A DNA stretch of 20,415 nucleotides from a virus. The notes beneath the pieces were generated by a model. It did not search any database. It had not been told where the DNA came from and worked only from the letters and a program-made list of their open reading frames with translations. A program made the translations under genes and the position numbers. Positions 223 through 18,345 of the stretch are shown in pieces. Each line of letters opens with the position of its first letter. Position 1 is the stretch's first letter. The DNA is taken from IMG/VR virus record IMGVR_UViG_3300003873_000610, positions 1 to 20,415 of that record; one strand, 5' to 3'.

Positions 223-253
223 CTATCTATCCTTCTTTCTCTTTATATAATAT

Positions 254-276
254 ATTATAGTATAATAAAGATTAAA
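254..276 (-). promoter_or_regulatory. Promoter (TTTAAT-11-TATAAT) for the repeat protein
   Basis: Read leftward, TTTAAT at 276-271 is followed after 11 nt by TATAAT at 259-254. The ATG at 222 lies about 32 nt downstream. The flanking sequence (TTTAATCTAACTTTAA upstream, TATTATACTATAATATA across the -10) is nearly the same as upstream of the gene starting at 14834. This implies a shared promoter class. No canonical -35 TTGACA is present. Confidence 0.65.
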
Positions 277-4820: not shown

Positions 4821-5901
4821 TCTTTCTCCTAATCTTATAAAAATTACCTATAGAATTATTAATCTTTCTTCGTGATTCATCATCTAATTTCGTATGATAT
4901 GCTAATTGTTCTAATACTTCTAGTCTTTCTATGAACCAGTCATCGGATATAATGATAAATTTATAGTCGTTGTTTATACACCAATTTTTAGCAGCCTTGA
5001 ATTTTAATTGATTAATTAGTGTATTTTTCTCAGAACTAGGTTTAATTTCATATAAAATCCTCTCCTTCTTATCCTCAAAGTCTACTATATAGTTATGGAT
5101 ATCTTCATCTATTTTATACTCTATTCTAACAGCTTCGTAATCTAAAGAAGGGTTATATAATAGGAATAGAGCATCCCAGGAACTTCTCGTCGGTATTCCG
5201 TTTATAACTACTCTACTCCTACTCCAGGAGTTAGTGACACAGGGGGTAAATTCTCCTCTTTTTATTTTCTCTTTCATAGACTTCGATTGTTTTTTATACT
5301 TTATTTTAAGTTCTGAGTCAGTTAGTTTACTTAAGGGGTTATCATCTTTCATTCTCCTAGACGATAATATACTCTCACACTCCCTAGAACAGGTTTTTCT
5401 ACCTCTGCTATGATTCTCTGATCTTAGGAGTATTTTCTTACAATTTTTACATGTTCCTATAGGAAATAACTTATCAGCTAATTCTTCTCTACTTAAATCT
5501 AAAAGATGTTCAATATAAATATCAATGCCGTGTTTAAAAAAATATCTTAAAAATGGAGATTTATATGTTATTAAAGTGGAGTTTTTATAATAGGTTGATG
5601 TATAAAATATTTTCTTCGAGATCTCTGTTTCTTTATATATAGGTTCTTTTATTAATCTTTTATCATAATCCCAATCTCCGAATACCAGATTCATGTCATA
5701 TATATCATTTATATATGCGTAATATATAAACTTAATATTTTCTCTTATTTTAGAAATCTCTTTCAGATCACTTCTAAATTCGAATATTTTACTTATAATA
5801 ACTCTAACTCTTTTTGTACTCTTACAATTTTTAATATCGAAGGTCTTTAGATACTCATCAAATTCATTTTTCTTCAACTTTTTTAATTCTATTAATTTCA
5901 T
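4807..5901 (-). CDS. Free-standing homing endonuclease inside the split intein
   Basis: The 364-residue protein has an uncharacterised N-terminal region (1-145), a zinc-finger-like module (C151-x2-C154 ... C171-x3-C175), a basic linker and a C-terminal nuclease domain. The nuclease core is RSSWDALFLLY (239-249), IDEDIHNYIVDF (264-275) and YEIKP (284-288). This gives D267, H269, D274, E285 and K287, a PD-(D/E)xK/Vsr-like arrangement similar to the EDxHD homing endonucleases reported with fractured phage genes. It probably cuts intein-less uvsW alleles so that the cassette spreads by repair. It starts 3 nt after the uvsW-N stop with no clear ribosome-binding site, suggesting translation by reinitiation, and overlaps the uvsW-C start by 14 nt. 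Nuclease class is moderately certain; the homing role follows from location. Confidence 0.78.
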   Translation of the reverse strand: MKLIELKKLKKNEFDEYLKTFDIKNCKSTKRVRVIISKIFEFRSDLKEISKIRENIKFIYYAYINDIYDMNLVFGDWDYDKRLIKEPIYKETEISKKIFYTSTYYKNSTLITYKSPFLRYFFKHGIDIYIEHLLDLSREELADKLFPIGTCKNCKKILLRSENHSRGRKTCSRECESILSSRRMKDDNPLSKLTDSELKIKYKKQSKSMKEKIKRGEFTPCVTNSWSRSRVVINGIPTRSSWDALFLLYNPSLDYEAVRIEYKIDEDIHNYIVDFEDKKERILYEIKPSSEKNTLINQLKFKAAKNWCINNDYKFIIISDDWFIERLEVLEQLAYHTKLDDESRRKINNSIGNFYKIRRKNGNS

Positions 5902-5904
5902 AGT

Positions 5905-6864
5905 TTATTTATATGATATAATATCATCCCCCTCCATCACAGTATCTACACGAATCCAACCTCTTTTGGTAAGAACTTTATGATTTCCAGTTATTCTTAT
6001 GGTTTCCTCATCGGTTTCTATCTCATACATACTTTCTTTTGATAAATTCTTATGTACTTTCACTACTTCTTTTAATTCTATATTTTCATTATCCTCATTT
6101 ATAGTATATACTTTATCCCCAGGTTTAATATGTTTAATAGCAATACTACCTCTTTCGGTTTTAATTAGAGTATCTGGGTGCAAACACTCATCGGTTAAAA
6201 TGTAATCATAAGATTTCATATCTTCTCGAACCTTAACAAGACTCTGATATGTCCCAATTACTAGAGGTTTATTCAATGTCTTATCATTATTTTCTCCCCC
6301 AATAAGTTTAATATCATTTAGGAATTTTTCTGGAGCTTGATAATCTTTGAAATCACCAAACATCTGAGAGACTAAAGAAATAGTAGGAACTAATAAAATA
6401 CCCTTAAGACCTTTCTCATAAAAATATCTCAATGTAATATAAGCCACGAGAGACTTACCAGAACCTGTACACATACTAGGTAAATAATAAGATTTTCTTA
6501 TCATATTAAGGACAGCTTTTAACTGATATTCTCTAGGTTTAAAGGGAAGTGATTTTACTATATCTTTAATAATTTTTTTATCTTCAGGTTCTAAAGTTTT
6601 ATCTTTTTTAATATCTATAGAATCAAATTTAATATTTTTTAATAATCTTTCTTTAAATCCTCTTGAAATTATAAAAAGAATACCTCCCTCCATCCTCTTA
6701 GTACTATAAAATCTAGTTCTTCCATCTGTAGCCCCTGATTGATATCTTGGCTCATATTCATATCCAGGTCTTAAAGCAGAAAGTAAATTATCAATTTTCT
6801 TGATAATATCTCTCTTATTAGTAAATACTTGAATCTCATTATCTAGTTCTCTTATAGCGGTCAT
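5905..6864 (-). CDS. uvsW: UvsW helicase, N-terminal half fused to an N-intein
   Basis: Residues 1-226 are the N-terminal half of the UvsW helicase. They contain FKPREYQLKAV (about 108-118, Q-motif-like), Walker A MCTGSGKS (131-138), LLVPTISLVSQM (motif Ia, about 157-168) and the start of motif II, YILTDE (221-226). Residues 227-319 are an N-intein beginning with Cys227 (CLHPDTLIKT, block A) and including TGNHKVLTKRGW (block B) and a TVMEGDDI segment. The product stops at SYK without any endonuclease domain. Joining DE226 to Cys37-His of the other half gives DECHLASS, an intact DExH box. AGGAAAT precedes the ATG. The gene starts 7 nt after the preceding small gene. Function depends on trans-splicing, which is inferred from complete splice motifs. 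Confidence 0.9.
   Translation of the reverse strand: MTAIRELDNEIQVFTNKRDIIKKIDNLLSALRPGYEYEPRYQSGATDGRTRFYSTKRMEGGILFIISRGFKERLLKNIKFDSIDIKKDKTLEPEDKKIIKDIVKSLPFKPREYQLKAVLNMIRKSYYLPSMCTGSGKSLVAYITLRYFYEKGLKGILLVPTISLVSQMFGDFKDYQAPEKFLNDIKLIGGENNDKTLNKPLVIGTYQSLVKVREDMKSYDYILTDECLHPDTLIKTERGSIAIKHIKPGDKVYTINEDNENIELKEVVKVHKNLSKESMYEIETDEETIRITGNHKVLTKRGWIRVDTVMEGDDIISYK
5908..6186 (-). other. Split intein, N-terminal fragment (93 aa)
   Basis: The intein begins at Cys227 of the upstream uvsW gene, exactly between DE and CH of the helicase motif II. Block A is CLHPDTLIKT, and block B is ITGNHKVLTKRGW with the conserved T-x-x-H. Together with the 36-residue C-intein this makes a 129-residue mini-intein, a normal size for a split intein lacking an endonuclease. 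Confidence 0.9.
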
Positions 6865-7279: not shown

Positions 7280-7552
7280 TTATATAAAAAATTGAGGCTT
7301 TAGTTCTTTGCATTCATTAATAGATATTTCGTATTCTGAGAGATACTCATAATACTTTATCTTTACCTTTTTGCTAATAATATATTTCTTATTTTTATAT
7401 TCATAAATAGGTACTATACTATCGTCTCCATCAAAAACTCCTAAACTGTCAACTAAAATATCCTCATTATGAGTTTTATCTATATGTAATTTATATCCTA
7501 ATGCTTTAATTAGTTCTAATGATCTTAATTTAGCACATTTACATATCTTCAC
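7280..7552 (-). CDS. Hypothetical protein, 90 aa
   Basis: The product begins MKICKCAKLRSLELIKALGY, with two cysteines at positions 4 and 6, and continues into a mixed alpha/beta sequence rich in Lys, Tyr and acidic residues (IYEYKNKKYIISKKVKIKYYEYL). The likely start is a GTG overlapping the end of the GGDEF gene by 14 nt, with AGGTAGG just upstream; no in-frame ATG occurs in the first half. No domain is recognised. Because it is translationally coupled to the GGDEF protein, a partner or effector role is conceivable but unsupported by any motif. Confidence 0.6.
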   Translation of the reverse strand: MKICKCAKLRSLELIKALGYKLHIDKTHNEDILVDSLGVFDGDDSIVPIYEYKNKKYIISKKVKIKYYEYLSEYEISINECKELKPQFFI

Positions 7553-7994
7553 ATCGCCTACCTAGACTTGCCTTTTTTTCTATTAGTAATCTATCTGCTT
7601 CCTTTATGATATCTTCAATAGTTTCGAATCCTTTTGAATATACACATGAGATCGAAGCTTTATTACACCGAATATCTATCTCATCTAAAGAGATAGCAAA
7701 AAATTCATCTCCTCCAATATGAAATACATGTAAATTATTAATGAGAATAAGTCTATCTGCTACACTCCTAAGTATACTATCTCCAACAGACATACCCTGC
7801 TCTCTGTTAATTTTATGAAGATTATTAACATCTATAAAATAGAAATAAAAATTCTCATTATTATCTAGCAGGCTATTAGCAAAATTAAAGAAGTCATGTC
7901 TTCCTAAGAGACCCGTTACGTAATTTCTTCTATAGAACTCTAGCTTACGCTCTAGGTTTTTTATTTTTAATTTTAATCTGTCCTCATTACTCAT
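7539..7994 (-). CDS. Stand-alone GGDEF domain protein (predicted diguanylate cyclase)
   Basis: The 151-residue protein is almost only a GGDEF domain, the enzyme fold that condenses two GTP into cyclic di-GMP. Visible family motifs are a short charged N-terminal helix (1-22), YVTGLLGRHDFF (25-36, matching the usual DxLTGLxNRxxF), FIDVNNLHKINREQGMSVGD (53-72) and a perfect GGDEF at 94-98, followed by ADRLLIEKK (133-141). Residues equivalent to the metal-binding Asp (D55), guanine-binding Asn (N63) and Asp (D72), and both GGDEF acids are present. There is no RxxD inhibitory site before GGDEF and no sensor domain, so activity would be unregulated by the usual means. The ATG at 7994 overlaps the sigma-4-like gene by 8 nt; a GTG four codons upstream is the alternative start. 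Confidence 0.85.
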   Translation of the reverse strand: MSNEDRLKLKIKNLERKLEFYRRNYVTGLLGRHDFFNFANSLLDNNENFYFYFIDVNNLHKINREQGMSVGDSILRSVADRLILINNLHVFHIGGDEFFAISLDEIDIRCNKASISCVYSKGFETIEDIIKEADRLLIEKKASLGRRCEDM

Positions 7995-8139
7995 CGTTAT
8001 TTTCACTTATATTTACATAATCCCAGAATTTTTGATTCTCTTTGGAGGGCATTTTAAGTTTTCTCATAGCTCTATCATATATTTTAATAGCTTCTGACTT
8101 ACTAATTCCTAATCTCTTAGCTATTTCATCAAAACTCAT
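7987..8139 (-). CDS. Small sigma-70 region-4-like helix-turn-helix protein, 50 aa
   Basis: The sequence MSFDEIAKRLGISKSEAIKI followed by YDRAMRKLK closely resembles sigma-70 region 4.2, whose consensus is roughly LeEIAerLGIS...V..ie..AL.KLR. The remaining 20 residues are a hydrophilic tail. Nothing else of a sigma factor is present, so it cannot be a complete sigma. It might bind the RNA polymerase beta flap or promoter DNA as an activator or anti-sigma-like factor. In T4 the co-activator gp33 plays a flap-binding role for late transcription; an analogy is possible but untested. AAAAAAGGATATAG precedes the ATG and a promoter-like element lies at 8167-8189. The gene leads the GGDEF cluster and overlaps it by 8 nt. 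A generic HTH regulator is the alternative. Confidence 0.7.
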   Translation of the reverse strand: MSFDEIAKRLGISKSEAIKIYDRAMRKLKMPSKENQKFWDYVNISENNDE

Positions 8140-8166: not shown

Positions 8167-8189
8167 ATTATAGTGAAATTTAGCTTAAT
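8167..8189 (-). promoter_or_regulatory. Promoter (ATTAAG-11-TATAAT) for the sigma-4/GGDEF cluster
   Basis: Leftward, ATTAAGCT begins at 8189 and TATAAT lies at 8172-8167 with an 11-nt spacer. It overlaps the last codons of the last radical SAM gene and lies about 30 nt before the 8139 start. It separates the radical SAM operon from the GGDEF cluster. Confidence 0.6.
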
Positions 8190-9096
8190 TTTTGATTAAT
8201 TTCCTATAGTCTTTTGGAGATAATTGTATAAATGTCTCCCATAATGAAGGGTATGGACAATTCATATCACAATTAATAAATCCATATTCTAATCTCCACG
8301 ATAATATATTAGAGCGAATATCTCTACATTGATCTATAATTACTAAATTAGAAAAATCAAACTCATATTGTAAAACATTACAATACTTTATATTCGACAT
8401 AGAAATGTCATTCTTACTCTCATATTTGTATCCGTATTGACCGTCTTCATTATGACCTATTTTCAATAATTTATCATAAATTATATTAACATAATCTGGT
8501 AATAAAGATCTATGCTTATTAAAAAAATTCATCATTCTAATAAAATCAGGACTTTTACTCTCAAGAAATGTAAGATCAAACACAAAACTTTTAAATACAG
8601 ATAATTCTTTTATTTTATTTAATGCACTAATCATCTTTTTTTCTGTAGTAAAATATGTCTCATGAAAGGTAGCATGTATTATTGGATTAACTAAATTAGT
8701 TTTTAATCCTACAAATTTTTGAAAAAACTCTAATTTTCCTGTAAAATTAGTTAACAATACTAGATTCAATTCTATATTATATTTAGTGCTCTGATCTATT
8801 ATAAAATTAAAATAATCAAAATATTTATTTTGCTCATATAGTACAGATAGCTCTCCTCCTAAAACAGACATTGATAGTTTTACTTTCTTATCTAGAGTTG
8901 ATAATTCTTTAAAAAATTTAGTCATCACTAGTTTAAATATATTAAAATTAACAGGTTTATACTTTTTATGAGTATATTCCCCTTGACAACAATAATGACA
9001 TTTCAGATTACAGAACTCAGTTAATTCTACTGAAGAATCTACTTGGATATAATCTCTTCTTTTATATTCTTCTAAAGTATTAATTTTAACAGACAA
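8185..9096 (-). CDS. Radical SAM protein (seventh of seven)
   Basis: The 303-residue protein has the radical SAM iron-sulfur motif CNLKCHYC (C29, C33, C36) near the N terminus and a GGE-type SAM-binding motif in SVLGGELSVL. Extra cysteines in the C-terminal third (YCNVL, IDQC, NCDMNCPYPS) suggest an auxiliary cluster or SPASM-like region. Radical SAM enzymes cleave S-adenosylmethionine to a 5'-deoxyadenosyl radical; the substrate here is unknown. The start appears to be TTG, because an in-frame TAG lies just upstream (two codons before the TTG) and no ATG precedes the cysteine motif. The gene overlaps its upstream neighbour by 11 nt. It is the last gene of the operon and shows little resemblance to the other six beyond the core motif. 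Confidence 0.85.
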   Translation of the reverse strand: MSVKINTLEEYKRRDYIQVDSSVELTEFCNLKCHYCCQGEYTHKKYKPVNFNIFKLVMTKFFKELSTLDKKVKLSMSVLGGELSVLYEQNKYFDYFNFIIDQSTKYNIELNLVLLTNFTGKLEFFQKFVGLKTNLVNPIIHATFHETYFTTEKKMISALNKIKELSVFKSFVFDLTFLESKSPDFIRMMNFFNKHRSLLPDYVNIIYDKLLKIGHNEDGQYGYKYESKNDISMSNIKYCNVLQYEFDFSNLVIIDQCRDIRSNILSWRLEYGFINCDMNCPYPSLWETFIQLSPKDYRKLIKN

Positions 9097-9976
9097 AATC
9101 TAATCCCATTTTTTCTATAAACATTTTTGTTTTCCTTTCACATAAAAAGCAGTTATCATATTTAAAATTTAGAATATCTGTATAATCAAAATCATCACCC
9201 TTAAATATATTCTCAGGATGGTATTCAAAGTGCGTATAACATGCACTAATCCTACCAGTTTGATCTATATATATTTTTCTATCTTCTATAGATTTGCATT
9301 GTATTTCACATTTTTTTTGACACCTATTATTGAATATCCATTTTATAAGTCTATCTCTAGTTTCTAAAGGTCTTACCGAGGAGTTTTCAGGTACTACTTT
9401 ATCATTATATAATCTATCACCCTCAGAGTCTACTACATAAAAATTTGTAAAGCCTAATTTTTTTACGTTTTCTAAATCATCTTTATTATAAATGAATCTA
9501 ATAAACTGACAATAATCAATAGACCTAATATCTCTTACTGCTTTTGCATTTGACAAAAGCTTTTGAAGATTACTACCAACTCTATATTTTTCATGAAGTT
9601 CTTGTGTACTTCCACAAATAGTAAAATGAATTTGATCTGAATCATCTAATATCTCAGCCACTTCTCTCCAAAAATTTTCATCTCTTGTACTTCCGTTAGT
9701 AAATAGCTCAATATATATGTTACGTCTTTTTAGATATCTGAGATAGTCTAGAAAGTCGGGATAAAGTGTTGGTTCGGATACCTGACCTGCTAAAAAAGTT
9801 CTCTTTAGATTAGGAAATGTATCTAATTGTTGTTTAATTTCATCTAGAGTTCTTATATTTTTATATACCATATGCTGAGCATGTGTATAATTTCTCGAAC
9901 ATAGAGGACAGCTTAAATTACAAACGCCGGTAAGATCCATCTCAAACTCTTCGAAATAGTCTCTAGAAATCTTCAT
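9086..9976 (-). CDS. Radical SAM/SPASM-like protein (sixth of seven)
   Basis: This 296-residue protein has the cluster-binding motif CNLSCPLC (C19, C23, C26), a barrel continuing through LAGQVSEPTLYPDFLDYL and IELFTNGS, and a cysteine-rich C terminus (CQKKCEIQC, TGRISACYTHF, NCFLC) that fits a SPASM-type auxiliary cluster region. Such proteins often modify peptides, but other substrates are known. It is a paralogue of the next gene upstream (9963-10841): both contain FTICGSTQ-x-LHEKYRVGSNL, encoded by 61 bp with only four differences. It overlaps its neighbours by 11 and 14 nt. The ATG start is unambiguous. The classical GGE is replaced by AGQ, so SAM-binding details may differ. Confidence 0.87.
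   Translation of the reverse strand: MKISRDYFEEFEMDLTGVCNLSCPLCSRNYTHAQHMVYKNIRTLDEIKQQLDTFPNLKRTFLAGQVSEPTLYPDFLDYLRYLKRRNIYIELFTNGSTRDENFWREVAEILDDSDQIHFTICGSTQELHEKYRVGSNLQKLLSNAKAVRDIRSIDYCQFIRFIYNKDDLENVKKLGFTNFYVVDSEGDRLYNDKVVPENSSVRPLETRDRLIKWIFNNRCQKKCEIQCKSIEDRKIYIDQTGRISACYTHFEYHPENIFKGDDFDYTDILNFKYDNCFLCERKTKMFIEKMGLDFVC
9567..9627 (-). repeat. 61-bp block shared by two radical SAM paralogues (copy 1)
   Basis: It matches 10438-10498 at 57 of 61 positions by eye. It encodes FTICGSTQELHEKYRVGSNL here and the same residues with one Glu-to-Lys change in the other copy. Flanking DNA is far more diverged. Confidence 0.8.
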
Positions 9977-10841
9977 TAGATCTTCCTATGTATAATTCTT
10001 CCTCAGATTCTTCATCCTCACCCTCAGATATTCTATATATTTTATTTTCTCTCAAAATCTTTTGATTCTTTTTTGAACACTCCCAACAATGTTCGTTTTC
10101 AAATAATTTTTCTAATGAGCAGAGATTTACTCTTCCTTTATAATCTATCATACGAAATCCGTACTTTAAGGAAGGACATTCTATATCATCATCATATCTA
10201 TCTAATAATTTATAGGCATTTCTTAGGTTCTTAGGTAGATGAATCCCAGGAATCTCAGGATATTCAAAATGTTCCTGAAAGGGTAAAGTATAGAAAAAAT
10301 GAGTATTAAACATTTTACTATATTTTTTATAATTCTTTTTAAAATCATTTTGATTATAATCAAATACTATATAAGTAAGAATTTCCTTTCCTACGGAATA
10401 TTTTTTAACTATCTCGGTTCTCCTCAAAACGTTTTCTAGATTACTCCCAACTCTATATTTTTCATGGAGTTTTTGAGTACTTCCACAAATAGTAAAATAT
10501 ATATGTCCTCTGGCTTTTTGAAATTTTATTCCTAACTTTTTATACCATACATCGTTTCTCAAATCTCCATTAATAAATAACGAGATTTCTATATCTCTTT
10601 GAACTAAATAATCTATTAAGTCGAATAATCTATCATAACTAGCAGGTTCCGAAATAGCTCCTGCTAAAGTTACATACTTTAAATTAGAAAAGGATTCTAG
10701 CTGAGATATTAGTTCATCATAATCTCTTTGAATAATTTTCTTGTCTAAATTATAATGAGTGTTCCTTAAGCATAGAGGACACTCTAGATTACAATAATTA
10801 GTGAGTTCTATTTCTACTCTATATATAGATAATCTGTCCAA
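9963..10841 (-). CDS. Radical SAM/SPASM-like protein (fifth of seven)
   Basis: The 292-residue paralogue of the 9086-9976 gene has CNLECPLC (C17, C21, C24), LAGAISEPASYDRLFDL, FTICGSTQKLHEKYRVGSNL, and a C-terminal cysteine set (ECPSLKYGFRMIDYKGRVNLC, HCWEC) typical of SPASM-like auxiliary cluster regions. The GRVNLC element matches the usual G-x-V-x-x-C of SPASM domains. A Glu/Asp-rich tail (SEGEDEESEEEL) follows. The start appears to be TTG with AAAGGAAAAAG just upstream, lying inside the end of the preceding gene (23-nt overlap). Substrate is unknown. The near-identical internal block in the two paralogues suggests either a constrained active-site element or gene conversion. Confidence 0.87.
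   Translation of the reverse strand: MDRLSIYRVEIELTNYCNLECPLCLRNTHYNLDKKIIQRDYDELISQLESFSNLKYVTLAGAISEPASYDRLFDLIDYLVQRDIEISLFINGDLRNDVWYKKLGIKFQKARGHIYFTICGSTQKLHEKYRVGSNLENVLRRTEIVKKYSVGKEILTYIVFDYNQNDFKKNYKKYSKMFNTHFFYTLPFQEHFEYPEIPGIHLPKNLRNAYKLLDRYDDDIECPSLKYGFRMIDYKGRVNLCSLEKLFENEHCWECSKKNQKILRENKIYRISEGEDEESEEELYIGRSNEDF
10438..10498 (-). repeat. 61-bp block shared by two radical SAM paralogues (copy 2)
   Basis: This is the partner of 9567-9627, differing at four positions. Both copies lie in the same place in the barrel of their respective proteins, so the pair is homologous by descent and not an inserted element. Confidence 0.8.
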
Positions 10842-11424
10842 AATCTTTTTCCTTTATTAGTCTCTTTAATGATTTCTTACTTATATTTTTAAATTTTTTA
10901 AATGATGTAAGTAACTTAACTCTATTTTTATAGCTTAATGTACTATCAAGTCCTCCATCTGCTGCTGTAGCTGCTACAACATCAAATACTATATCTTTAT
11001 TATTTTCCATAAAACTTTCAAAATTCTTAAAGTTAATATCATCTACAACTATCATGTAGTCTAGATTTTTATACTCGTAGGTCTTTACTATATCGTCTAG
11101 ATTTTCAGAACAATGATATAAAATATAATCTAATCTATTTGTAAGATCAGGATACCTTTCTAAAAATAGACCATTAGTATTTAGAGATAGAGAATTAGAA
11201 ATAGGTTTAAGATAATCTATAATAAACTCGAGCTCTTCTCTTTTCATTGTACCTAATTCTCCACCACTTAAGGTAATATTATAATCAGGATAATTATTTC
11301 TTATATATATTAACTTTTCTTTTACCTCTTCAAAGCTAAGTCTAGGTCTATTATGTGTATCTACAGCACAAAAAGTACAATCCCAATTACATTTGTATGT
11401 GACTATTAGTTCTATTTCATTCAT
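10819..11424 (-). CDS. Short radical SAM protein (fourth of seven), 201 aa
   Basis: This is a compact radical SAM protein with CNWDCTFC (C12, C16, C19), TLSGGELGT (SAM-binding GGE, about residues 51-59) and NTNGLFLERYP. At about 200 residues it has just enough length for a partial TIM barrel and no auxiliary-cluster domain, in the size range of small activase/QueE-like members. It is a paralogue of the genes at 11421-12002 and 12985-13554: with the latter it shares NGLFLERYP, DYILYHCSENLD and a NFKN-x-x-SF segment. ATG start; it overlaps its upstream neighbour by 4 nt (ATGA). Function unknown. It could act with the longer SPASM-like members or as an activating enzyme. Confidence 0.85.
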   Translation of the reverse strand: MNEIELIVTYKCNWDCTFCAVDTHNRPRLSFEEVKEKLIYIRNNYPDYNITLSGGELGTMKREELEFIIDYLKPISNSLSLNTNGLFLERYPDLTNRLDYILYHCSENLDDIVKTYEYKNLDYMIVVDDINFKNFESFMENNKDIVFDVVAATAADGGLDSTLSYKNRVKLLTSFKKFKNISKKSLKRLIKEKDFGQIIYI

Positions 11425-12002
11425 ATTCTTGATATATCTCTACTAAACTCTCTTAGAGTTCTTTTATTAATTCTATCTTTATTATAATTAATAAACTTTA
11501 AGAATTCTTTAATTTTTATCATGCTCTCTCCACGATAATCACCCAGGATTAGAAAATCTAGTTCAGGATAGTTATCAATATAATATTGAATATCCTCAAA
11601 AGATTCATTAATAGCTACTAATATATAATATCTATTATCTTTATTCATAATATCTGAATATAATTTAAAATCTTTTTTAGTTGAAAGATCTTCTACTACA
11701 TGATAAAATATTTCATCTATATCTTGAATAAATTCTGGATGATTTTCAAAAAATAAACCATTAGTCATAAGGTCTATTTTAAGATTTTTTTCTTTAAGAT
11801 TATCTATAATAATACTTAACCTATCCTTAGATAATATTCCAGGCTCACCTCCAGAAATTGTCACACTCTTGATACTATCAGGAAGATTATTAATTTCTTC
11901 TAGAACAGTCTCAAAAGTTTTTTCGGGCTGAGCATGAGTATATGAAATGCAGTAATCACAATTCCAATTACATTTAAAAGTGACACTTAACTCATAGTTC
12001 AT
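11421..12002 (-). CDS. Short radical SAM protein (third of seven), 193 aa
   Basis: The second of the three short paralogues. It contains CNWNCDYC (C11, C15, C18), TISGGEPGIL (about 48-57) and LMTNGLFFENHPEF, followed by a FYHVVEDL segment equivalent to YHCSENLD in its sisters. No C-terminal cysteine cluster is present. ATGA overlaps link it to both neighbours, so translation is coupled. It keeps the full CxxxCxxC and GGEP motifs and so should be catalytically competent. Substrate cannot be deduced. Divergence from its two sisters is greater than between those two. Confidence 0.85.
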   Translation of the reverse strand: MNYELSVTFKCNWNCDYCISYTHAQPEKTFETVLEEINNLPDSIKSVTISGGEPGILSKDRLSIIIDNLKEKNLKIDLMTNGLFFENHPEFIQDIDEIFYHVVEDLSTKKDFKLYSDIMNKDNRYYILVAINESFEDIQYYIDNYPELDFLILGDYRGESMIKIKEFLKFINYNKDRINKRTLREFSRDISRI

Positions 12003-12988
12003 CTAAACTCCATAGGATCTTTTATTTTTTTACCTGCATCGGGATATAGTTCTTGATTTTTAATATTCTTCTCTATTCCATCACAAATATAATAGTACTT
12101 ACAACTAAAACAATCTCTAGGTTTATAATAAGTATAATTTCTTTTTATAAAAGCTTCATTATACATATCAATTACATCAAAATTTTTAGGTTCTTTTAAG
12201 TCATATACTAAAATATTCCAATCTTTTAAGTCATATATATGCTGATATGTATCACATACATATTCCTCATATCCTATCATAAAGCAATACGGAATATATC
12301 TTACATTAATTTCTATACCTGTGTCTTTAAGAATATCTATAGATTCTTTAATATACATAGATAGATTTTCATATGATTCAGGTTTCATAACTTGAGCATC
12401 ATCCCAATAATTTAGTGGAAGATAATTTAGTTGATACGGATTTATCTCTTTTATTAAATTACTATATGTATCTAAATGTCTCATATTTTTGGACGTAACC
12501 GTACAATTAATTCTTACTTGTATTCCTACTCTTTTGCAATTTTCAATTGCTGTTAAAATATCCTTAAAGGCACCACCATACCCTACTATTCTATCATGAG
12601 ACTCTTCATCATATCCGTGAAGAGAGAATAGAACTTCTTCTAATCCGTATTCAAATGACTTCTTAGTAAACTCTAAGTCTTTTAATTTTGTTCCGTTACT
12701 TAGACAAGAAACTCTATCAAAATTATCCTTACAGTACTCTAAGATTTCAAACCATTTCGAATGTATAGTAGATTCCCCTCCGGATAAATCTATTTCCTGT
12801 ATTCCAGATTTCTTAATAATATCTATTCTCTTTTTAATTTCCTCAAAAGACAATTCTGGATCATTTAAATTTTTTCTGTAATAACAGAAAAAGCATTTGT
12901 AATTACATTTAAGACCTGTATCTAACTTAGCTCTTGAATTAATAGGTTTGTTAGATATTTCAGGTCTAGAGAATTGATTATAATTCAA
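11999..12988 (-). CDS. Radical SAM protein with C-terminal cysteine cluster (second of seven)
   Basis: About 329 residues. It has CNYKCFFC near residue 30, DLSGGESTIHSKWFEIL (GGE motif), CLSNGTKL and LFSLHGYDEESHDRIVG, all typical of the MoaA/PqqE-type radical SAM core. It ends with the cysteine motif CFSCKYYYICDG, matching the terminal part of SPASM-like domains. I prefer a TTG start at 12988 because AAAGG lies 8 nt upstream and the codon overlaps the preceding TGA as TTGA. A GTG three codons earlier (12997) is the alternative but has its Shine-Dalgarno too close. This is the most canonical radical SAM/SPASM member of the operon, a family that often modifies peptides or cofactors. No precursor peptide is recognisable beside it. 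Confidence 0.86.
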   Translation of the reverse strand: MNYNQFSRPEISNKPINSRAKLDTGLKCNYKCFFCYYRKNLNDPELSFEEIKKRIDIIKKSGIQEIDLSGGESTIHSKWFEILEYCKDNFDRVSCLSNGTKLKDLEFTKKSFEYGLEEVLFSLHGYDEESHDRIVGYGGAFKDILTAIENCKRVGIQVRINCTVTSKNMRHLDTYSNLIKEINPYQLNYLPLNYWDDAQVMKPESYENLSMYIKESIDILKDTGIEINVRYIPYCFMIGYEEYVCDTYQHIYDLKDWNILVYDLKEPKNFDVIDMYNEAFIKRNYTYYKPRDCFSCKYYYICDGIEKNIKNQELYPDAGKKIKDPMEFR

Positions 12989-13554
12989 GTAGAACACCTT
13001 TCTAAAATCTTAGCTATACTATCTTTTGATATATGCTTCTTATATTTTGTAGCTAGCTCTATTTTATTTTTCATAGACAGATAATTACCCCTTTTACTAA
13101 TAGGACCTTTCGAGGCACTAAAAACTCTAAAAATTATATCAGAATTTTTTTTAAAAAAAGAACTGAGATTTTTAAAATTATTATCAGATACTGTAATTTG
13201 ATATTCTATATTTTTATCTTTATATCTCTTAAAGTCGGAGTCTAAATTTTCCGAACAATGATATAAAATATAATCGAAAGAATCTATATGTTCAGGATAT
13301 CTCTCTAAAAATAGACCATTAGTCATTAATTCTAAAGAACAATTCTTTTCTTTTAATTTATATATAATATTATCTATATGTAATTTTTCTACAGTACCTG
13401 GCTCCCCGCCCATAATACAAACTCGAGAACCGTCTGGTATATTAATTATCTCTCTATATACTTCTTCTATTTCTTTCTTCTTATTATGAGTATCTATAAT
13501 ACAATACTCACAAAACCAGTTACATTTATATGTTATATATAAATCATATATCAT
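12985..13554 (-). CDS. Short radical SAM protein (first of seven), 189 aa
   Basis: The first radical SAM gene in transcription order. Motifs are CNWFCEYC (C11, C15, C18), CIMGGEPGTV (about 47-56), LMTNGLFLERYP and DYILYHCSENLD. It is closest to the 10819-11424 gene even though two other genes separate them, indicating duplication followed by rearrangement or insertion. No auxiliary cluster domain. The ATG overlaps the stop of the nucleotidyltransferase gene (ATGA), so the two proteins are probably made in a fixed ratio. A short Ser/Arg/Lys C terminus completes the protein. Function unknown. Confidence 0.85.
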   Translation of the reverse strand: MIYDLYITYKCNWFCEYCIIDTHNKKKEIEEVYREIINIPDGSRVCIMGGEPGTVEKLHIDNIIYKLKEKNCSLELMTNGLFLERYPEHIDSFDYILYHCSENLDSDFKRYKDKNIEYQITVSDNNFKNLSSFFKKNSDIIFRVFSASKGPISKRGNYLSMKNKIELATKYKKHISKDSIAKILERCST

Positions 13555-14585
13555 TTTTTAATCAATTCTAATAAAATTTCATCTATTTTTTTAGAGTCTG
13601 CTTTTTCTGGTAGATCTGAAGTAAGTAATAGATGATCTACATTATCTAAAACATCTTGAACTCTATCAAGTACTTCTTCAGGATCTTCTAATCCTCTTTT
13701 TACATCTTTAAGATATTTTCTATCTTTAAGAGGAAATTTGATAAATTTTGTTTTGAGTAATTCTTGTACCTCTAGAGCAACCCTTAGAGCATGAGATAAC
13801 GCCTTAAAATCTGTTTTAGATTCTGTATTAGCTACTGTTTTAGTTCTATTACCGAATTGATTATATAACTTAAAAACTCTTTCTTTAAAGTATTCAATCG
13901 TAACATTACCATGAAATAATTTTCCAAGTACCGAAATATATTCAATATCTTCTTGCACTCCATTATTTTTAGGACCTGGAGCCGTTACGAACTTAATATA
14001 ATTATATTTTTTAGACTCTTCTTTTAGACTTTCAAATATTTCAGATAATTTCATTTCATTTTCTGAAACCTCTGGATTTTTAGGTAAAGATTCAAGATAT
14101 TTTACAAAAGTATCGAGTTCATTATATCTCTCACCTTTAATACCAAATTTCTTAGTTTGTCCTACGGCATATCCTATAAATGACTTCATATTTGTATTTA
14201 AGAAAAACTTATAGTTCTTCTTAATCTCATCTGTAAAGGCTTCATCTTCAAATACAATAGTTTTAGACCTAAACATAGAAAAAAGCAAATCCATAGATCC
14301 TGTTTCTGATTTTTTAAGATGATTAAAAAAATCTACAATACTATGAAGTGTAAAGTCAATGTCATTTGCACCATTCTTAGAATTACTCTGTCCTGTAGTA
14401 AATGAAATTGATTTAGGAGCCTTTCCTAAAATTAAATCGTCAGTAGATGGAATAAAAATTCCCTTATAATCTGTATCGGATTTTTCATCATTGGTTCCGT
14501 AGAGTTTTGAGCCACTTAAAGTAATATATACTACCTTAACATTGTGTTGCATCTCAATATCTTTAATGGTTTTTTGTAAATCCAT
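13551..14585 (-). CDS. RlaP-like nucleotidyltransferase (DNA polymerase beta superfamily)
   Basis: The 344-residue protein has the DNA polymerase beta-type nucleotidyltransferase signature near its N terminus: TLSGSKLYGTNDEKSDTDYK, with G25-S26 and the metal-binding D37-x-D39. This form (GSxxYG...SDxDxxG) is typical of the predicted nucleotidyltransferases, including RlaP, found beside RNA ligases in RNA-repair clusters. The remainder is helical. No RNA ligase is present here; instead the gene is coupled by ATGA to seven radical SAM genes. It may add nucleotides to RNA ends or to a protein. AGGAGAAGAAA precedes the ATG, in the 12-nt gap after the 78-aa gene. Superfamily confident, substrate unknown. 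Confidence 0.8.
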   Translation of the reverse strand: MDLQKTIKDIEMQHNVKVVYITLSGSKLYGTNDEKSDTDYKGIFIPSTDDLILGKAPKSISFTTGQSNSKNGANDIDFTLHSIVDFFNHLKKSETGSMDLLFSMFRSKTIVFEDEAFTDEIKKNYKFFLNTNMKSFIGYAVGQTKKFGIKGERYNELDTFVKYLESLPKNPEVSENEMKLSEIFESLKEESKKYNYIKFVTAPGPKNNGVQEDIEYISVLGKLFHGNVTIEYFKERVFKLYNQFGNRTKTVANTESKTDFKALSHALRVALEVQELLKTKFIKFPLKDRKYLKDVKRGLEDPEEVLDRVQDVLDNVDHLLLTSDLPEKADSKKIDEILLELIKK

Positions 14586-14597
14586 TTTCTTCTCCTA

Positions 14598-14834
14598 CTA
14601 AACTTTACCATTTCTTATATATTTCTCAAACTCTTCACGAGTAATTCTACTAAATTTATGACCTATTTCTATATATCTCTTAAATACCTCATCCATAGAA
14701 ACATTTACATCTCTAACAATTATAATATCACTACTAAATACAAAATCGAATATACGATCTTCATGAGTGTTTATTTTTCTAAACTCTGTCTGTGATATAT
14801 TAACTATCGAACTCTCTCTTATAAGAATTGTCAT
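14598..14834 (-). CDS. Hypothetical protein, 78 aa, first gene of the radical SAM operon
   Basis: The product begins MTILIRESSIVNISQTEFRK and ends FEKYIRNGKV. It looks like a small alpha/beta protein with alternating hydrophobic residues (IIIVRDVNVSMDEVF) and no cysteine. No family is recognised. It is transcribed from the promoter at 14862-14884 with AAGGATAG just before the ATG. It precedes the nucleotidyltransferase gene by 12 nt and so heads the nine-gene operon. It lacks a leader/core layout and does not look like a RiPP precursor. It could be a regulator or an accessory subunit. Confidence 0.65.
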   Translation of the reverse strand: MTILIRESSIVNISQTEFRKINTHEDRIFDFVFSSDIIIVRDVNVSMDEVFKRYIEIGHKFSRITREEFEKYIRNGKV

Positions 14835-14861
14835 CCTTCTATCCTTTTCTTTATTTTATAT

Positions 14862-14884
14862 ATTATAGTATAATATAGCTTAAA
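14862..14884 (-). promoter_or_regulatory. Promoter (TTTAAG-11-TATAAT) of the radical SAM operon
   Basis: Leftward, TTTAAGCT starts at 14884 and TATAAT lies at 14867-14862, 28 nt before the 14834 start. The upstream extension AATCTAACTTTAA is also found at the repeat-protein promoter near base 280. Confidence 0.7.
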
Positions 14885-14911: not shown

Positions 14912-14934
14912 TTTAAGCTTTTTTATACTATAAT
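14912..14934 (+). promoter_or_regulatory. Promoter (TTTAAG-11-TATAAT) of the CCA-type enzyme gene
   Basis: Rightward, TTTAAG at 14912-14917 is followed after 11 nt by TATAAT at 14929-14934, then ATATAAAATAAAG and AAGGA before the ATG at 14960. It mirrors the leftward promoter 28 nt away almost base for base from the box to the ribosome-binding site, making a divergent promoter pair. Confidence 0.7.
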
Positions 14935-14959
14935 ATATAAAATAAAGTGAAGGATAGTA

Positions 14960-15844
14960 ATGAAGAAAGAAATTCTAGGTAGAATTAATAGAAGGTTATA
15001 TAGTCATAATTTATTTGACATAGATTTACCTATTAAAACTATAGATCAAGTATTACAAATATCTAACCTAGATGTAGATTTTGAATTAAATGTCTTAGCC
15101 CAAGATTATATTCGAATAAATAAAGGTCTAGGACCATACTACTCACAGTTAGGTAGAAAATTTCGAAGAATTCAAAAAAGAGAATCTAAAAAAATTAATA
15201 CTTTTATTAATAATATTTTAGACGATACTACTTGTGAAGTAATTGAAATTTTAGAATATCTATCTCCTAATAGTTGTATAGTAGGAGGGTCTGTTAGAGA
15301 TATTATTTTATATAAAAAACCAAAAGATTTTGACTTTGTAACTGATGTAGAATATAATATTCTAAAAAATGAATTTATTAAGCAAGGTTTTAATGTAAAG
15401 GAAGTAGGAAAACAATTTTTAGTTCTATTAGTTTCTAAAAATGGAATAGATTATGAAATTGCTAATTTTAGAAAAGATAGAACCTATAAAGACGGTCGAA
15501 GACCTGAATCAGTTCAGATAGGAACTATTTTTGATGATGCTCAGAGAAGAGATTTAACTATCAATGCACTGTATTTTAATCTACTTAATAGAAAAATTCA
15601 AGATCCTAATCTTCAAGGACTATTTGATATAGATCAAAAGATATTGCGATTTATTGGTAAGCCAGAAGATAGAATTGAAGAGGATAAATTAAGAGTATTT
15701 AGATTTTATAGATTTATTCAAAAGACAGAATTTATACCTGAGAAAAATAGTTTAAAAGCAGTTCGAAGTAATTTTGAAAGGGCTATAAAAGAAACATCTT
15801 CAGAAAGAATTAAAAGTGAAGTAGAAAGAATGATTGGATTATAA
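14960..15844 (+). CDS. tRNA CCA-adding / poly(A) polymerase-type nucleotidyltransferase
   Basis: The C-terminal two-thirds of this 294-residue protein is the class II CCA/poly(A) polymerase catalytic head and neck: CIVGGSVRDIIL (106-117), metal-binding DFDF (123-126), RRDLTINAL (196-204), LFDIDQKIL (221-229) and EDKLRVFRFYRF (241-252), then the SSERIKSEVERM end. These enzymes repair or build the CCA end of tRNA or add tails to RNA. The usual C-terminal body and tail domains (family about 370-420 aa) are missing, while about 100 N-terminal residues of no recognised family are added. AAGGA precedes the ATG. It is the lone rightward gene between two leftward operons and overlaps the 3' end of the convergent gene by 6 nt. 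CCA addition versus other tailing cannot be decided. Confidence 0.82.
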   Translation: MKKEILGRINRRLYSHNLFDIDLPIKTIDQVLQISNLDVDFELNVLAQDYIRINKGLGPYYSQLGRKFRRIQKRESKKINTFINNILDDTTCEVIEILEYLSPNSCIVGGSVRDIILYKKPKDFDFVTDVEYNILKNEFIKQGFNVKEVGKQFLVLLVSKNGIDYEIANFRKDRTYKDGRRPESVQIGTIFDDAQRRDLTINALYFNLLNRKIQDPNLQGLFDIDQKILRFIGKPEDRIEEDKLRVFRFYRFIQKTEFIPEKNSLKAVRSNFERAIKETSSERIKSEVERMIGL

Positions 15845-16660
15845 GATATCCTTTAAAATATCTATAATCTTATCATCTTCAAGAAGTTCAAGAGATTTAA
15901 AATCATCTTGAATATCTCTCCATCTCCAATATAGACCAGAATCCTCTTCAAAATACTTTTGTACATCTGGATGAAATTCTATATCTTTTCCGAAGTATCT
16001 ACATTCTACTAAAAATCTAGGAGAACAATCAAACTTTCTTGATACTGGAGTATAAATGTATTTTTGAAATCTACTAAATAGGTCAAGAACAGGAAGATCT
16101 TCTTTTCTTAACTTTAAGGAGTTTTCTACATTATAATTAGTATCTCTACAATTTTCAGTAGCATATATTAAGGTCTTATTATCTTTAGTTTCAGGTTTCT
16201 TTAATTTAGATAGGAGTATCTTCTTCTTATAATTAAAAGATTTTTTAGGAATTTTAGGATACACCCTATAATCTAAAAATACAGTAGCTTCATCTTGATC
16301 TAGAATATTAAAATCTCCACAAGCGAAACATAAGATTTTCTTATATAATATATTACATCTTCTAATATTCATCCACGAACCATCTACAAAAAATATATTA
16401 TTAGTTTTAACTAAAGTAGGCTTAGTATCTATAATTGTATTATCAATAATATCCTGAATCTCATTTTCGGTAAATGAGTACTTAGATTCTATAATTTCCT
16501 CATAATTTCTAATATTCTCTGGAATAAATATTTTTACATTAAAGTGATTTTTTAAGATGTAGTAGTACTCTATGCATTCGAAAAGATGGCCAGAAACTCC
16601 ATGAGTAAAATTACCCCAAGAAAATGTTAAAAGTAATTCACTGTTATCATTTATTATCAT
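15839..16660 (-). CDS. Glycosyltransferase-like protein A, 273 aa
   Basis: The N terminus (LLTFSWGNFTHGVSGHLFEC then IEYYYILKNHFNVKIFIPE) is typical of the start of GT-B glycosyltransferases, where a glycine-rich loop meets the first helix. The C-terminal part has KYIYTPVSRKFDCSPRFLVE followed by CRYFGKDIEF, a segment I associate with phage and capsule glycosyltransferase-like proteins. Cysteines are scattered without a metal pattern. It is a distant paralogue of the next gene upstream, which carries RFIPECFYYGRELEF in the same place, and the two overlap by 14 nt. In a phage such enzymes may glycosylate modified DNA bases, virion proteins or host surface sugars. The family call is tentative. 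Confidence 0.5.
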   Translation of the reverse strand: MIINDNSELLLTFSWGNFTHGVSGHLFECIEYYYILKNHFNVKIFIPENIRNYEEIIESKYSFTENEIQDIIDNTIIDTKPTLVKTNNIFFVDGSWMNIRRCNILYKKILCFACGDFNILDQDEATVFLDYRVYPKIPKKSFNYKKKILLSKLKKPETKDNKTLIYATENCRDTNYNVENSLKLRKEDLPVLDLFSRFQKYIYTPVSRKFDCSPRFLVECRYFGKDIEFHPDVQKYFEEDSGLYWRWRDIQDDFKSLELLEDDKIIDILKDIL

Positions 16661-17429
16661 TTAATATATCCTGGATTATTTTATCATCTTTATCTAACCT
16701 ATATTTATTTAAATTTCCTGATTTACAATCATTATATCTAAAAATAGAAGAATCTTGAATCTTACACTCGTCAACAAATTCTAATTCCCTACCATAATAA
16801 AAACATTCCGGTATGAATCTATTATTGGTATCCATCGTATTGTGAATATATTTAAATGTTTTATATTTTTCAAAAATATTAATAAATGTACTTGGTTTTT
16901 TAGAATGCTTATTTCTAATGTTTTTCATACCTCCAGAAGATTCAAATTGTTCAGATTCTGAAGGAGAATCAAATTTTTTAAATATATCAAAATTTAATTT
17001 AAGTATATTATATTCATCAAAGTTTTGATATTCATAACTTCCATAATATTTAATATTTTTCATTTTAGACCTTGTTAGCACATATTCGGATTGGTCATTA
17101 TTTCCATTTACAAAAACGTAAAAATCTCCCTGAATAAGAGGACCTATAGTGTCAAAAGTTCTAATATCTAAACACAAATTCTTAGGACTTTGTGATTTAT
17201 ATACAGATTTAATATCATCAGTAGCGATAATTTTATCTAACAATGTATGATCAAATTCATATCTTTCTTTAAAAATATTTTTTACAAATTCCAAATCTTC
17301 TTCGTTTATCTTATGAATATAAAAATAAGTATCTTCAAATCTGTTAAGAAATTCAAAATATTCGAAACAATAAAATAATGTTCCGTTTACTTTTTTATTT
17401 TTTAAAAAATGATAATAAACAGAAATCAT
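16647..17429 (-). CDS. Glycosyltransferase-like protein B, 260 aa
   Basis: A paralogue of protein A: similar size, an aromatic N-terminal half (NGTLFYCFEYFEFLNRFEDT) and a C-terminal FKYIHNTMDTNNRFIPECFY then YGRELEF that aligns with the IYTPVSRKFDCSPRFLVEC segment of its neighbour. Both end with a D-D-K-I-I-x-x-I-L pattern. The glycine-rich N-terminal loop seen in A is reduced to KVNGTLF, so B may be a non-catalytic partner. The ATG directly follows the stop of the upstream gene (TAAATG). The pair probably arose by tandem duplication and may form a heterodimer. No direct evidence for substrate. Confidence 0.5.
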   Translation of the reverse strand: MISVYYHFLKNKKVNGTLFYCFEYFEFLNRFEDTYFYIHKINEEDLEFVKNIFKERYEFDHTLLDKIIATDDIKSVYKSQSPKNLCLDIRTFDTIGPLIQGDFYVFVNGNNDQSEYVLTRSKMKNIKYYGSYEYQNFDEYNILKLNFDIFKKFDSPSESEQFESSGGMKNIRNKHSKKPSTFINIFEKYKTFKYIHNTMDTNNRFIPECFYYGRELEFVDECKIQDSSIFRYNDCKSGNLNKYRLDKDDKIIQDILNDNK

Positions 17430-17993
17430 TTAGATCTTTAACTCAATAGCTTTTAATTTTTCAGTATCGTTTTCATCAGCGTATTTTAGATCTTCTAAAA
17501 CTTCTTCGAAATCTATTCTAGCTGTCTTAATAGGACTTAGTCTATCTTTAGATAATAGAAATTTCTCTAAAGTATCTATTAGATCTTCATCACCAGACTC
17601 TAAGATTTCCAAATATTTTTCTTCTTTATTATCATCTGTAATAAAAAATCCTCTAGAGTTTAAAATATTATTAGTATCGATAAAATCTATATAATATATA
17701 AGGTCTGCTGAGCCTACTATACCGTCTAATTTCTGTTTAGCTTTTTTAGCTATTCTAACTTTATTAGATTCTTTTAAAGATATTCCGTAATATGTAGCAT
17801 CACCTAACTCAACTATACCGCTTTTATTCATAGTAATAGATTTTTTATCTATATTAAGTGATATAAACTTATTTAACTTTTCATCATCTATCTCTATAGC
17901 ATTAATACCTAACTCTTCAAACTCTTTCTTAGTGATAGGTTTAAGAATAGTTAACGTATCTTCATATCTACTAACTTCGTAGTATTTAGTCAT
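17430..17993 (-). CDS. Hypothetical acidic protein, 187 aa
   Basis: The protein begins MTKYYEVSRYEDTLTILKPI. It is rich in Asp, Glu, Lys and Ile and has no cysteine, signal peptide or membrane segment. The C-terminal half looks helical and ends in a charged segment. No family is recognised. Its start overlaps the stop of the S74-type chaperone gene (ATGACTAA), with GAGGAGAAAATAA just upstream, so the two are co-translated. That context hints at a fibre-related function, for example an assembly chaperone or hinge, but the sequence alone does not show it. Confidence 0.65.
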   Translation of the reverse strand: MTKYYEVSRYEDTLTILKPITKKEFEELGINAIEIDDEKLNKFISLNIDKKSITMNKSGIVELGDATYYGISLKESNKVRIAKKAKQKLDGIVGSADLIYYIDFIDTNNILNSRGFFITDDNKEEKYLEILESGDEDLIDTLEKFLLSKDRLSPIKTARIDFEEVLEDLKYADENDTEKLKAIELKI

Positions 17994-18318
17994 TTATTTT
18001 CTCCTCTAGTTTTGTAATTCTTTGATTTAGTTCTTGAATTGATTTAATAATAGGCGATATTAATTCGTAATAGTTCACACTCATATATCCATTAGAATTA
18101 TATTGTAAAATATTAAATTCTGATGGATCCTCTCCTTGTTCGTATAAATATTTTTCTATATCTTGAGCCATTACTCCAAAATATACTTTATTGGGATCTC
18201 CCTGAAAATCGGTATATTCTTTAATATCGGGTGAATAATTATACTTCGACGGTACTAAACTATTTATAAGGTTAAGTCCGAATTTACTGTATTTAGATGT
18301 TGTATTTTCTTTTTTCAT
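17986..18318 (-). CDS. Free-standing S74-type intramolecular chaperone domain, 110 aa
   Basis: Nearly the whole protein matches the C-terminal chaperone (peptidase S74/endosialidase ICA) domain that folds and trims phage fibres: KFGLNLINSLVPSKYNY (13-29), YFGVMAQDIEKYL (46-58), YMSVNYYELISPIIKSIQEL (about 78-97) and a terminal coiled coil (NQRITKLEEKIND). Normally this domain is the C-terminal end of a long fibre and begins with the self-cleavage motif SDxRxK. Here it is a separate gene, starts just after the place where that motif would be, and lacks the catalytic Ser-Asp. The gene has no visible ribosome-binding site: TATAATATAATATAGT runs directly into the ATG, and a TAA lies in frame three codons upstream. 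It may chaperone a fibre in trans or be a relic of a rearranged fibre gene. Confidence 0.85.
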   Translation of the reverse strand: MKKENTTSKYSKFGLNLINSLVPSKYNYSPDIKEYTDFQGDPNKVYFGVMAQDIEKYLYEQGEDPSEFNILQYNSNGYMSVNYYELISPIIKSIQELNQRITKLEEKIND

Positions 18319-18323
18319 ACTAT

Positions 18324-18345
18324 ATTATATTATAAATATCTTAAA
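18324..18345 (-). promoter_or_regulatory. Promoter (TTTAAG-10-TATAAT) abutting the S74-type gene
   Basis: Leftward, TTTAAG at 18345-18340 is followed after 10 nt by TATAAT at 18329-18324. The ATG at 18318 is only 5 nt from the -10, so a transcript starting at the usual distance would be leaderless or nearly so. Confidence 0.5.
18331..18338 (+). promoter_or_regulatory. T4-type late promoter element TATAAATA
   Basis: An exact match to the T4 late -10 consensus TATAAATA, 27 nt before the ATG at 18365 and followed by AAGGAAG. T4 late promoters consist of this element alone, read by gp55-gp33-gp45-modified RNA polymerase. The downstream genes are late-type virion genes, which fits. Confidence 0.6.

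Follow-up and report, generated by a model that had tools for sequence, protein, structure and literature searches.

The window analysed here is a 20,415-base IMG/VR fragment (record IMGVR_UViG_3300003873_000610, positions 1 to 20,415) of an uncultured T4-like phage, a distant relative of the Campylobacter phages CP220 and CPt10. Its T4-like genes comprise an RNase H-like exonuclease, gp32, gp45, UvsW, gp15 and a tail fibre. Between UvsW and gp15 stands a leftward-reading operon with seven consecutive genes for predicted radical S-adenosylmethionine (SAM) enzymes, and it is the role of these seven that concerns us. Listed as they are read, the genes of the operon are the following:

14598-14834, minus strand: open reading frame (ORF) of 78 residues, first gene of the operon, cysteine-free, function unassigned
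13551-14585, minus strand: RlaP-type nucleotidyltransferase, by profile matches to Pfam (PF10127) and PHROG (phrog_388)
12985-13554, minus strand: S7, short radical SAM protein of 189 residues, phage-specific CxWxCxYC family
11999-12997, minus strand: M6, MoaA-like radical SAM protein of 332 residues with extra conserved C-terminal cysteines, core gene of the cassette described below
11421-12002, minus strand: S5, short radical SAM protein of 193 residues
10819-11424, minus strand: S4, short radical SAM protein of 201 residues
9963-10841, minus strand: R3, radical SAM protein of 292 residues with C-terminal cysteines, paralogue of R2
9086-9976, minus strand: R2, radical SAM protein of 296 residues with C-terminal cysteines
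8185-9096, minus strand: R1, divergent radical SAM protein of 303 residues, last gene of the array, with relatives in locus L016 (four copies)

The seven adjacent radical SAM ORFs span 8185-13554, and each overlaps the next (R1/R2 by 11 nucleotides, R2/R3 by 14, R3/S4 by 23, S4/S5 by 4, S5/M6 by 4 and M6/S7 by 13); S7 and RlaP overlap by 4 nucleotides. The initial annotation, made from the letters alone, had described just such an array of leftward CxxxCxxC genes with overlaps of 4-23 nucleotides, sorted into three short paralogues, two longer ones, one MoaA-like and one divergent protein, and headed by an RlaP homologue and a 78-residue ORF behind one promoter motif. All of this stands, and the phage origin of the array and a genuine investment in several enzymes are likewise supported. 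The 78-residue ORF has no match in Pfam, PHROG or NCBIfam.

Judged from profiles and motifs, all seven ORFs are members of the radical SAM superfamily. Six score above the gathering threshold of PF04055; R1 falls below it (23.6 against 29.5 bits, E 6.7e-5) and matches the radical SAM family phrog_1802 (E 1.7e-6). Every one of the seven has the CxxxCxxC motif, and most have a GGE-type SAM motif, with AGxxSEP in R2 and R3. S7, S5 and S4 carry a signature (CxWxCxxC, GGE, YH) that is invariant across 33 aligned sequences, and the AlphaFold model of S4 (pLDDT 92.9) displays a shortened radical SAM barrel, with viperin, a sactipeptide maturase and MoaA as its nearest structures. In a tree of the S proteins, the second S gene of other phages joins the window S5 in one clade (support 98/95). 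S4 has a loose affinity to the S genes that come last, and the placement of S7 is not settled. A search of 395 genomes from a single bacterial phylum met no full-length cellular S homologue, so that, to the extent covered, the S family looks confined to phages. M6 is conserved, with 26 sequences aligned at 31-71% identity to the window copy, and its profile finds viperin-like enzymes, SkfB, BlsE and MoaA among PDB sequences.

Subfamily profile searches, which had been proposed as a check, uphold superfamily membership and leave every equivalog cut-off unreached. The window enzymes share core fold and motifs with MoaA, viperin and SPASM-type proteins, but score far below the equivalog cut-offs, and the S proteins are shorter (about 190-200 residues). 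With SPASM maturases of ribosomally synthesized and post-translationally modified peptides (RiPPs), M6 reaches 84.7 bits where 267.9 is asked for (HxsC), and R2 72.9 where 380 is. Production of a viperin-type antiviral nucleotide was considered and rejected, M6 scoring 62.7 bits and the others less against a prokaryotic viperin cut-off of 180. An Rfam search gave no match.

R2 and R3 are paralogues, and they share a stretch of 74 nucleotides with 89% DNA identity around the peptide HEKYRVGSNL (9554-9627 and 10425-10498). This stretch is the only match to R3 in a DNA search with the R1-R2 region, and gene conversion is a possible origin.

The radical SAM genes are real and under purifying selection. 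Ratios of nonsynonymous to synonymous substitution rates (dN/dS) against the sister fragment L025 are 0.193 for S4, 0.134 for R3, 0.160 for R2 and 0.139 for M6, values that are approximate, dS being 1.1-1.4 and near saturation; sequence comparison at this level excludes chance or decay. Between other, closer pairs of relatives the ratio is 0.02-0.10. Decay in relatives, which would have spoken against a common pathway, is not what we see: the genes are intact where present, though they are accessory. Indeed, sister fragments differ in which of them they hold, so that the S and R genes are accessory: L025 has M6, one S5-like gene, S4, R3 and R2, while the 183-kb record of the sister phage L047 has M6 only at the corresponding site, with S and R genes absent.

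Relatives were gathered as 39 contigs, by three scans with S, R and GTb (a glycosyltransferase gene introduced below) as anchors, together with an M6 scan; a viral scan with the single S7 sequence produced no confirmed relative, whereas alignment-based scans did find relatives. Comparison of synteny among them, another check proposed at the outset, reveals a similar S7-S5-S4-R3-R2 order in diverged phages. Because gene order is similar in diverged phages, the genes are under purifying selection and sugar-biosynthesis genes are linked to them, a multistep pathway, as the initial annotation had supposed, is probable.

The operon is a variant of a phage radical SAM cluster that has been known, unexplained, since 2010. 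In CP220 and CPt10 (Firehammervirus), an interchangeable cluster of five radical SAM genes was described together with a putative glycine amidinotransferase, its function not being given, and 11-12 radical SAM proteins were counted per genome (Timms et al., 2010, PMC2853527); this also bears out the earlier statement that T4-like phages of AT-rich hosts sometimes carry such genes. The window resembles these cultured relatives in having adjacent radical SAM genes of homologous families: M6 corresponds to CP220 gp163 (45% identity), R2 and R3 to CP220 gp080, gp083 and gp084 (about 30-42%; 32-34% for R2), the S proteins to CPt10 gp087 (24-32%), and GTb to CP220 gp077 (about 30% over half its length). 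It differs from them by its seven genes instead of five, by three S paralogues standing together, by the presence of M6 in the array – the Campylobacter phages keep it at a separate locus – and by RlaP at the head. The window, a fragment, has no amidinotransferase among its ORFs, in contrast to the Campylobacter phage cluster and to 16 of 27 related loci. We found no paper since 2010 that shows the function of these phage clusters. CP220 and CPt10 each give 11 matches to PF04055. Twelve related IMG/VR records, many perhaps incomplete, hold 5-13 of these genes for oxygen-sensitive radical enzymes.

What accompanies the array points to sugars. Beyond a gene resembling CCA-transferase, which is divergent and separates the radical SAM operon from the next one, the window contains these genes:

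14960-15844: CCA-transferase head-domain gene (PF01743), divergent
15839-16660, minus strand: GTb, glycosyltransferase of GT-B fold, neighbouring the operon and linked to the radical SAM cassette across phages
16647-17429, minus strand: GTb2, distant paralogue of GTb (about 20% identity), probable glycosyltransferase
17430-17993, minus strand: x187, uncharacterised protein directly downstream of the S74/fibre gene in most relatives
17986-18318, minus strand: stand-alone tail-fibre S74 chaperone domain (PF13884), head of the S74-x187-GTb2-GTb operon
18697-19488: gp15, adjoining the tail-fibre-like ORF
19490-20413, plus strand: tail-fibre-like protein with YadA-head repeats, its 3' end cut by the window

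A Pfam search of the window ORFs gave no match for x187. GTb has, we are confident, the two-domain GT-B fold: its AlphaFold model (pLDDT 92.3) aligns in VIA over 235 residues with GT-B enzymes, at Z scores of 14.1 for PimA, 12.9 for Campylobacter PglA and 11.6 for T4 alpha-glucosyltransferase, while Foldseek alone gives an E value of only 0.03.

In relatives, the same families belong to a recurrent cassette that lies beside a tail-fibre gene. Its order is UDP-glucose dehydrogenase, two SPASM radical SAM proteins (F11 and F6), a Cys-rich S74 protein, x187, GTb2, GTb, M6, S7, S5, S4, copies of R3/R2, a B12-binding radical SAM protein, a PseB-like dehydratase, a DegT-type protein, an amidinotransferase, an epimerase and a PIG-L deacetylase. 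Pfam names the families UDPG dehydrogenase, Polysacc_synt_2, DegT, epimerase, PIG-L and GT2 among them, and the PDB sequence nearest to the amidinotransferase is StrB1 (E 5e-31). Of the 27 loci to which the S or R families alone led, 24 contain one sugar gene or more; GTb was there in 17, GTb2 in 16, the amidinotransferase in 16, the epimerase in 15, PIG-L in 12 and DegT in 11. The S family is missing from the relatives L007 and L008, which do have M6 and GTb. A 52-kb contig of a Bdellovibrionales metagenome-assembled genome (L068, MEQL01000015.1) carries the same cassette in phage-like DNA, its M6 copy having an in-frame TGA.

M6 leads to cells as well. A genome scan gave nine loci, of which L068 and L073 are phage-like, L069-L072 are cellular with glycan genes, and three are weak and left uncounted; five more cellular homologues came from the 395 genomes of one phylum, which makes nine cellular loci in total. 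Pieces of about 3.9 kb around M6 are too short to judge, and larger ones were used. Pfam confirms glycan genes in seven of the nine: GT9 and GT2 in L069, a polysaccharide flippase in L070, GT2 in L071 and L072, a group 1/4 glycosyltransferase in L093, a cytidylyltransferase in L095 and PseB/DegT/NeuB-type genes in L096. In L094, glycan genes were judged by eye. These bacterial and archaeal proteins (L069-L072, L093-L096) are 29-39% identical to M6 where measured, and like it they are encoded among glycan genes, between glycosyltransferases, flippases or nonulosonate-type genes; the cellular loci differ in holding also membrane assembly proteins, and no S family was seen there.

A related arrangement has been described in pelagimyophages, where a hypervariable island near tail-fibre genes contains glycosyltransferases and radical SAM cassettes, and a surface-glycan role was already proposed for the glycosyltransferases (Zaragoza-Solas et al., 2020, PMC7029224). 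In the window, tail-fibre, gp15, S74 and GT-B genes stand next to one another. The pelagimyophage cluster is delimited by VrlC and gp14, and the window fragment has neither gene; the radical SAM families were not analysed in that work.

We read the seven genes as the enzyme-coding portion of a sugar module, swappable and accessory, placed in the host-recognition region, by which a glycan would be made or tailored, perhaps to glycosylate the fibre, and we give this reading about an even chance of being right. New in its detail, the sugar reading is moderately supported. The initial annotation had offered nucleic acid, a peptide or a cofactor as substrate; none of the three is favoured for these seven enzymes, and their genomic surroundings suggest a sugar or glycan instead. 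The S, M6 and R enzymes would carry out successive SAM-derived radical steps on a sugar precursor or on the glycan, for which oxidation, epimerisation, deoxygenation and cross-linking are conceivable, and GTb and GTb2 would transfer sugars to an acceptor. A tail fibre of S74 type may be a likelier acceptor than the glycans of the host surface: the cassette keeps its place next to the fibre gene, and few of its products are membrane proteins. The purpose might be to protect or tune the receptor-binding apparatus, or else to alter the host surface.

Several observations weigh against a sugar module. No sugar-nucleotide gene is present in the 20 kb of the window, which has only the two GT-B-like genes, and these in a neighbouring operon; a GT-B fold by itself names neither donor nor acceptor. 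In L047, GTb and M6 persist although every S and R gene is missing; glycosyltransferase function therefore does not need the S and R genes. In the Campylobacter phages the same families are spread over several loci. M6 finds no equivalog-level match in NCBIfam, its best matches being generic and far below cut-off. The 27 loci were picked by homology to window genes, some being near-duplicates, and their counts are descriptive; one of the nine cellular M6 loci, L097, has no glycan gene, and the seven in nine is a raw count, set against no random expectation for radical SAM genes near glycan genes.

The most serious competitor, which we nevertheless consider rather unlikely, is a RiPP-like maturation, where the enzymes act directly on a virion protein such as the tail fibre, or on a small peptide, and create thioether or C-C cross-links or epimers. 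The cassettes of relatives indeed place SPASM enzymes of families F6, F11 and F52, with the ranthipeptide maturase PapB as best NCBIfam match (far below cut-off for F6), beside fibre-like proteins with Cys repeats; the window S74 ORF matches the S74 remainder of the Cys-rich protein of L006, the sister phage has the matching Cys-rich part at another site, and R2, R3 and M6 have extra C-terminal cysteines. Yet the seven window enzymes are outside F6, F11 and F52, no Cys-rich or other obvious precursor is found in the window (the 78-residue ORF offers no cysteine), M6, GTb and R occur in marine phages whose searched loci or records showed no Cys-repeat protein to match, and cellular M6 relatives reside in glycan loci. 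A composite scenario, where the seven enzymes and F6, F11 and F52 maturases encoded elsewhere would yield an S74/Cys-repeat fibre that is both radically cross-linked and glycosylated during infection, seems to us doubtful.

The pairing of SPASM enzymes with Cys-rich proteins is an observation in its own right. F6-type enzymes adjoin fibre-like proteins with dense CxC repeats, for example (Y/F)C(T/P)C(N/D)CN; such proteins are met in L113 (86 cysteines in 364 residues), L131:8772-9917, L133, L135, L128, L120, L129 and L023:1298-2368. With a Cys-repeat criterion that was reset after a first regular expression had failed, a Cys-repeat ORF lies within about 6 kb in 25 of 32 non-redundant strong F6 loci. 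The figure is 7 of 23 for weak SPASM matches (Fisher p 7e-4) and 1 of 17 for other pieces. The pair exists in a cultured phage: CP220 gp140 (NC_027997, 160932-162536) has six full Cys heptads in a row, four genes away from the F6 homologue gp136. The DNA pattern for Cys octads misses repeats of seven residues, and its zero for CP220 is no absence, gp140 carrying heptads. An intragenic 21-bp DNA repeat was reported in one gene each of CP220 and CPt10, numbered CPT_0180, its correspondence to gp140 being unmapped (Timms et al., 2010, PMC2853527). Also in CP220, gp166 (NC_027997, 138106-138531), of 141 residues with 27 cysteines in CxxC-type repeats, precedes the M6 orthologue gp163 by three genes. 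As for S74, the window ORF (17986-18318) corresponds to the split-off S74 part of the L006 Cys-rich protein: at L006:6133-6944 the ORFs for S74 and the Cys-rich stalk adjoin, each in its own frame, in the sister L047 record the Cys-rich part is at 167336-167902, about 40 kb from the S74 part, and the window has the S74 part only, without the stalk. It is possible that the Cys-repeat fibre-like protein is a virion protein matured like a RiPP; a literature search whose coverage excluded most subscription journals found no paper on this pairing.

An unlikely variant of the sugar module is that it remodels the host surface, changing lipopolysaccharide, capsule or flagellar glycan, with a block of superinfection as the outcome. 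Its chemistry is that of the reading we favour, and only the acceptor differs. It has been proposed for the pelagimyophage islands, which also hold radical SAM cassettes (PMC7029224), and cellular M6 homologues stand beside flippase, heptosyltransferase and nonulosonate-type genes. A crude hydropathy scan detects few membrane proteins in the cassettes, however, with the exception of c07 and its two, and a strict linkage to the fibre and S74 genes is not what such remodelling predicts.

Modification of nucleic acids, in which the enzymes would hypermodify phage DNA or transfer RNA and RlaP would act on RNA ends, is to our mind very unlikely. Some phage DNA modifications involve radical SAM enzymes, the modified nucleoside 2'-deoxy-7-amido-7-deazaguanosine (dADG) is reported in the literature for Campylobacter phages of the CP220/CPt10 group, and RlaP adjoins the CCA-transferase-like gene. 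Synthesis of queuosine or 7-deazaguanine by the window enzymes was nonetheless rejected: they score at most 30.1 bits where the NCBIfam cut-offs for QueE (7-carboxy-7-deazaguanine synthase) are 206-260, and the M6 locus of the sister phage is apart from both its QueC (at 25.5 kb) and its QueD-like gene (at 106.1 kb). A search for HMUDK, the thymidine-hypermodification kinase, had no match anywhere and is uninformative.

RlaP itself is well identified (PF10127, 57.5 bits against a cut-off of 23, E 2.1e-15), and it had been taken as a sign of a nucleotidylated substrate or RNA end. This is not borne out, and RlaP was rejected as a guide to the substrate. Homologues are found in 1,488 phage records, most of them from ordinary T4-like phages of enterobacteria; RlaP is beside radical SAM genes in 3 of 43 loci examined, all three in this lineage, and in 1 of the 27 loci found through S or R; L047 retains it in place though the S and R genes are absent. 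From this distribution among genomes, RlaP is probably incidental to the radical SAM genes. As to partners in RNA repair such as RtcB or an RNA ligase, the operon itself contains none, and the divergent CCA-transferase-like gene stands beside it.

Finally, a small molecule or cofactor unrelated to the virion, such as an aid to the anaerobic fitness of the infected host, appears most improbable: the amidinotransferase, DegT aminotransferase and deacetylase of relatives do resemble aminocyclitol-type chemistry, and a metabolic benefit has been suggested (Timms et al., 2010, PMC2853527), but the linkage to fibre and glycosyltransferase genes would be left unexplained.

If the product of the favoured sugar module is on the virion, radical chemistry would join the known ways in which phages modify their receptor-binding parts; if it is on the host, new sugars would enter the superinfection arms race. 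With a fibre-linked sugar cassette, a GT-B neighbour, cellular M6 in glycan loci and cultured relatives, the oddity of 2010 becomes testable.

The operon is preceded by a promoter-like motif, TATACTATAATATA, with these copies:

14859-14872, minus strand: about 25 nucleotides upstream of the 78-residue ORF
14924-14937, plus strand: mirror copy, facing the CCA-transferase-like gene
18321-18334, minus strand: variant upstream of the S74 gene
251-264, minus strand: further copy

Allowing at most one mismatch, TATACTATAATATA has 5 matches in the window where 0.2 are expected. Since it also precedes many genes of the sister phage, it is very likely a promoter element of this phage. A generic promoter scan of the window came out scarcely above shuffled sequences (86 against 75.3, standard deviation 10.1).

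Other genes of the window deserve a word. Just downstream of the array, at 7539-8006 on the minus strand, is a GGDEF domain (PF00990, E 7.3e-11) with intact motif, and the phage-encoded protein is possibly, to judge from this match, a cyclic di-GMP synthase. The UvsW helicase (3906-6864, minus strand) consists of two ORFs with the N- and C-parts of an intein, an endonuclease-like ORF with a TnsA-like match sitting between the two halves; in the sister fragments L025 and L047, UvsW is undivided, with 497 residues, at the same place. At 1-222 (minus strand) the window holds a member of a family of TSLEGAP-repeat proteins resembling BspA and leucine-rich repeats, further copies of which are found in the L047 record at 109859, 112342, 169642, 170385, 171313 and 181849.

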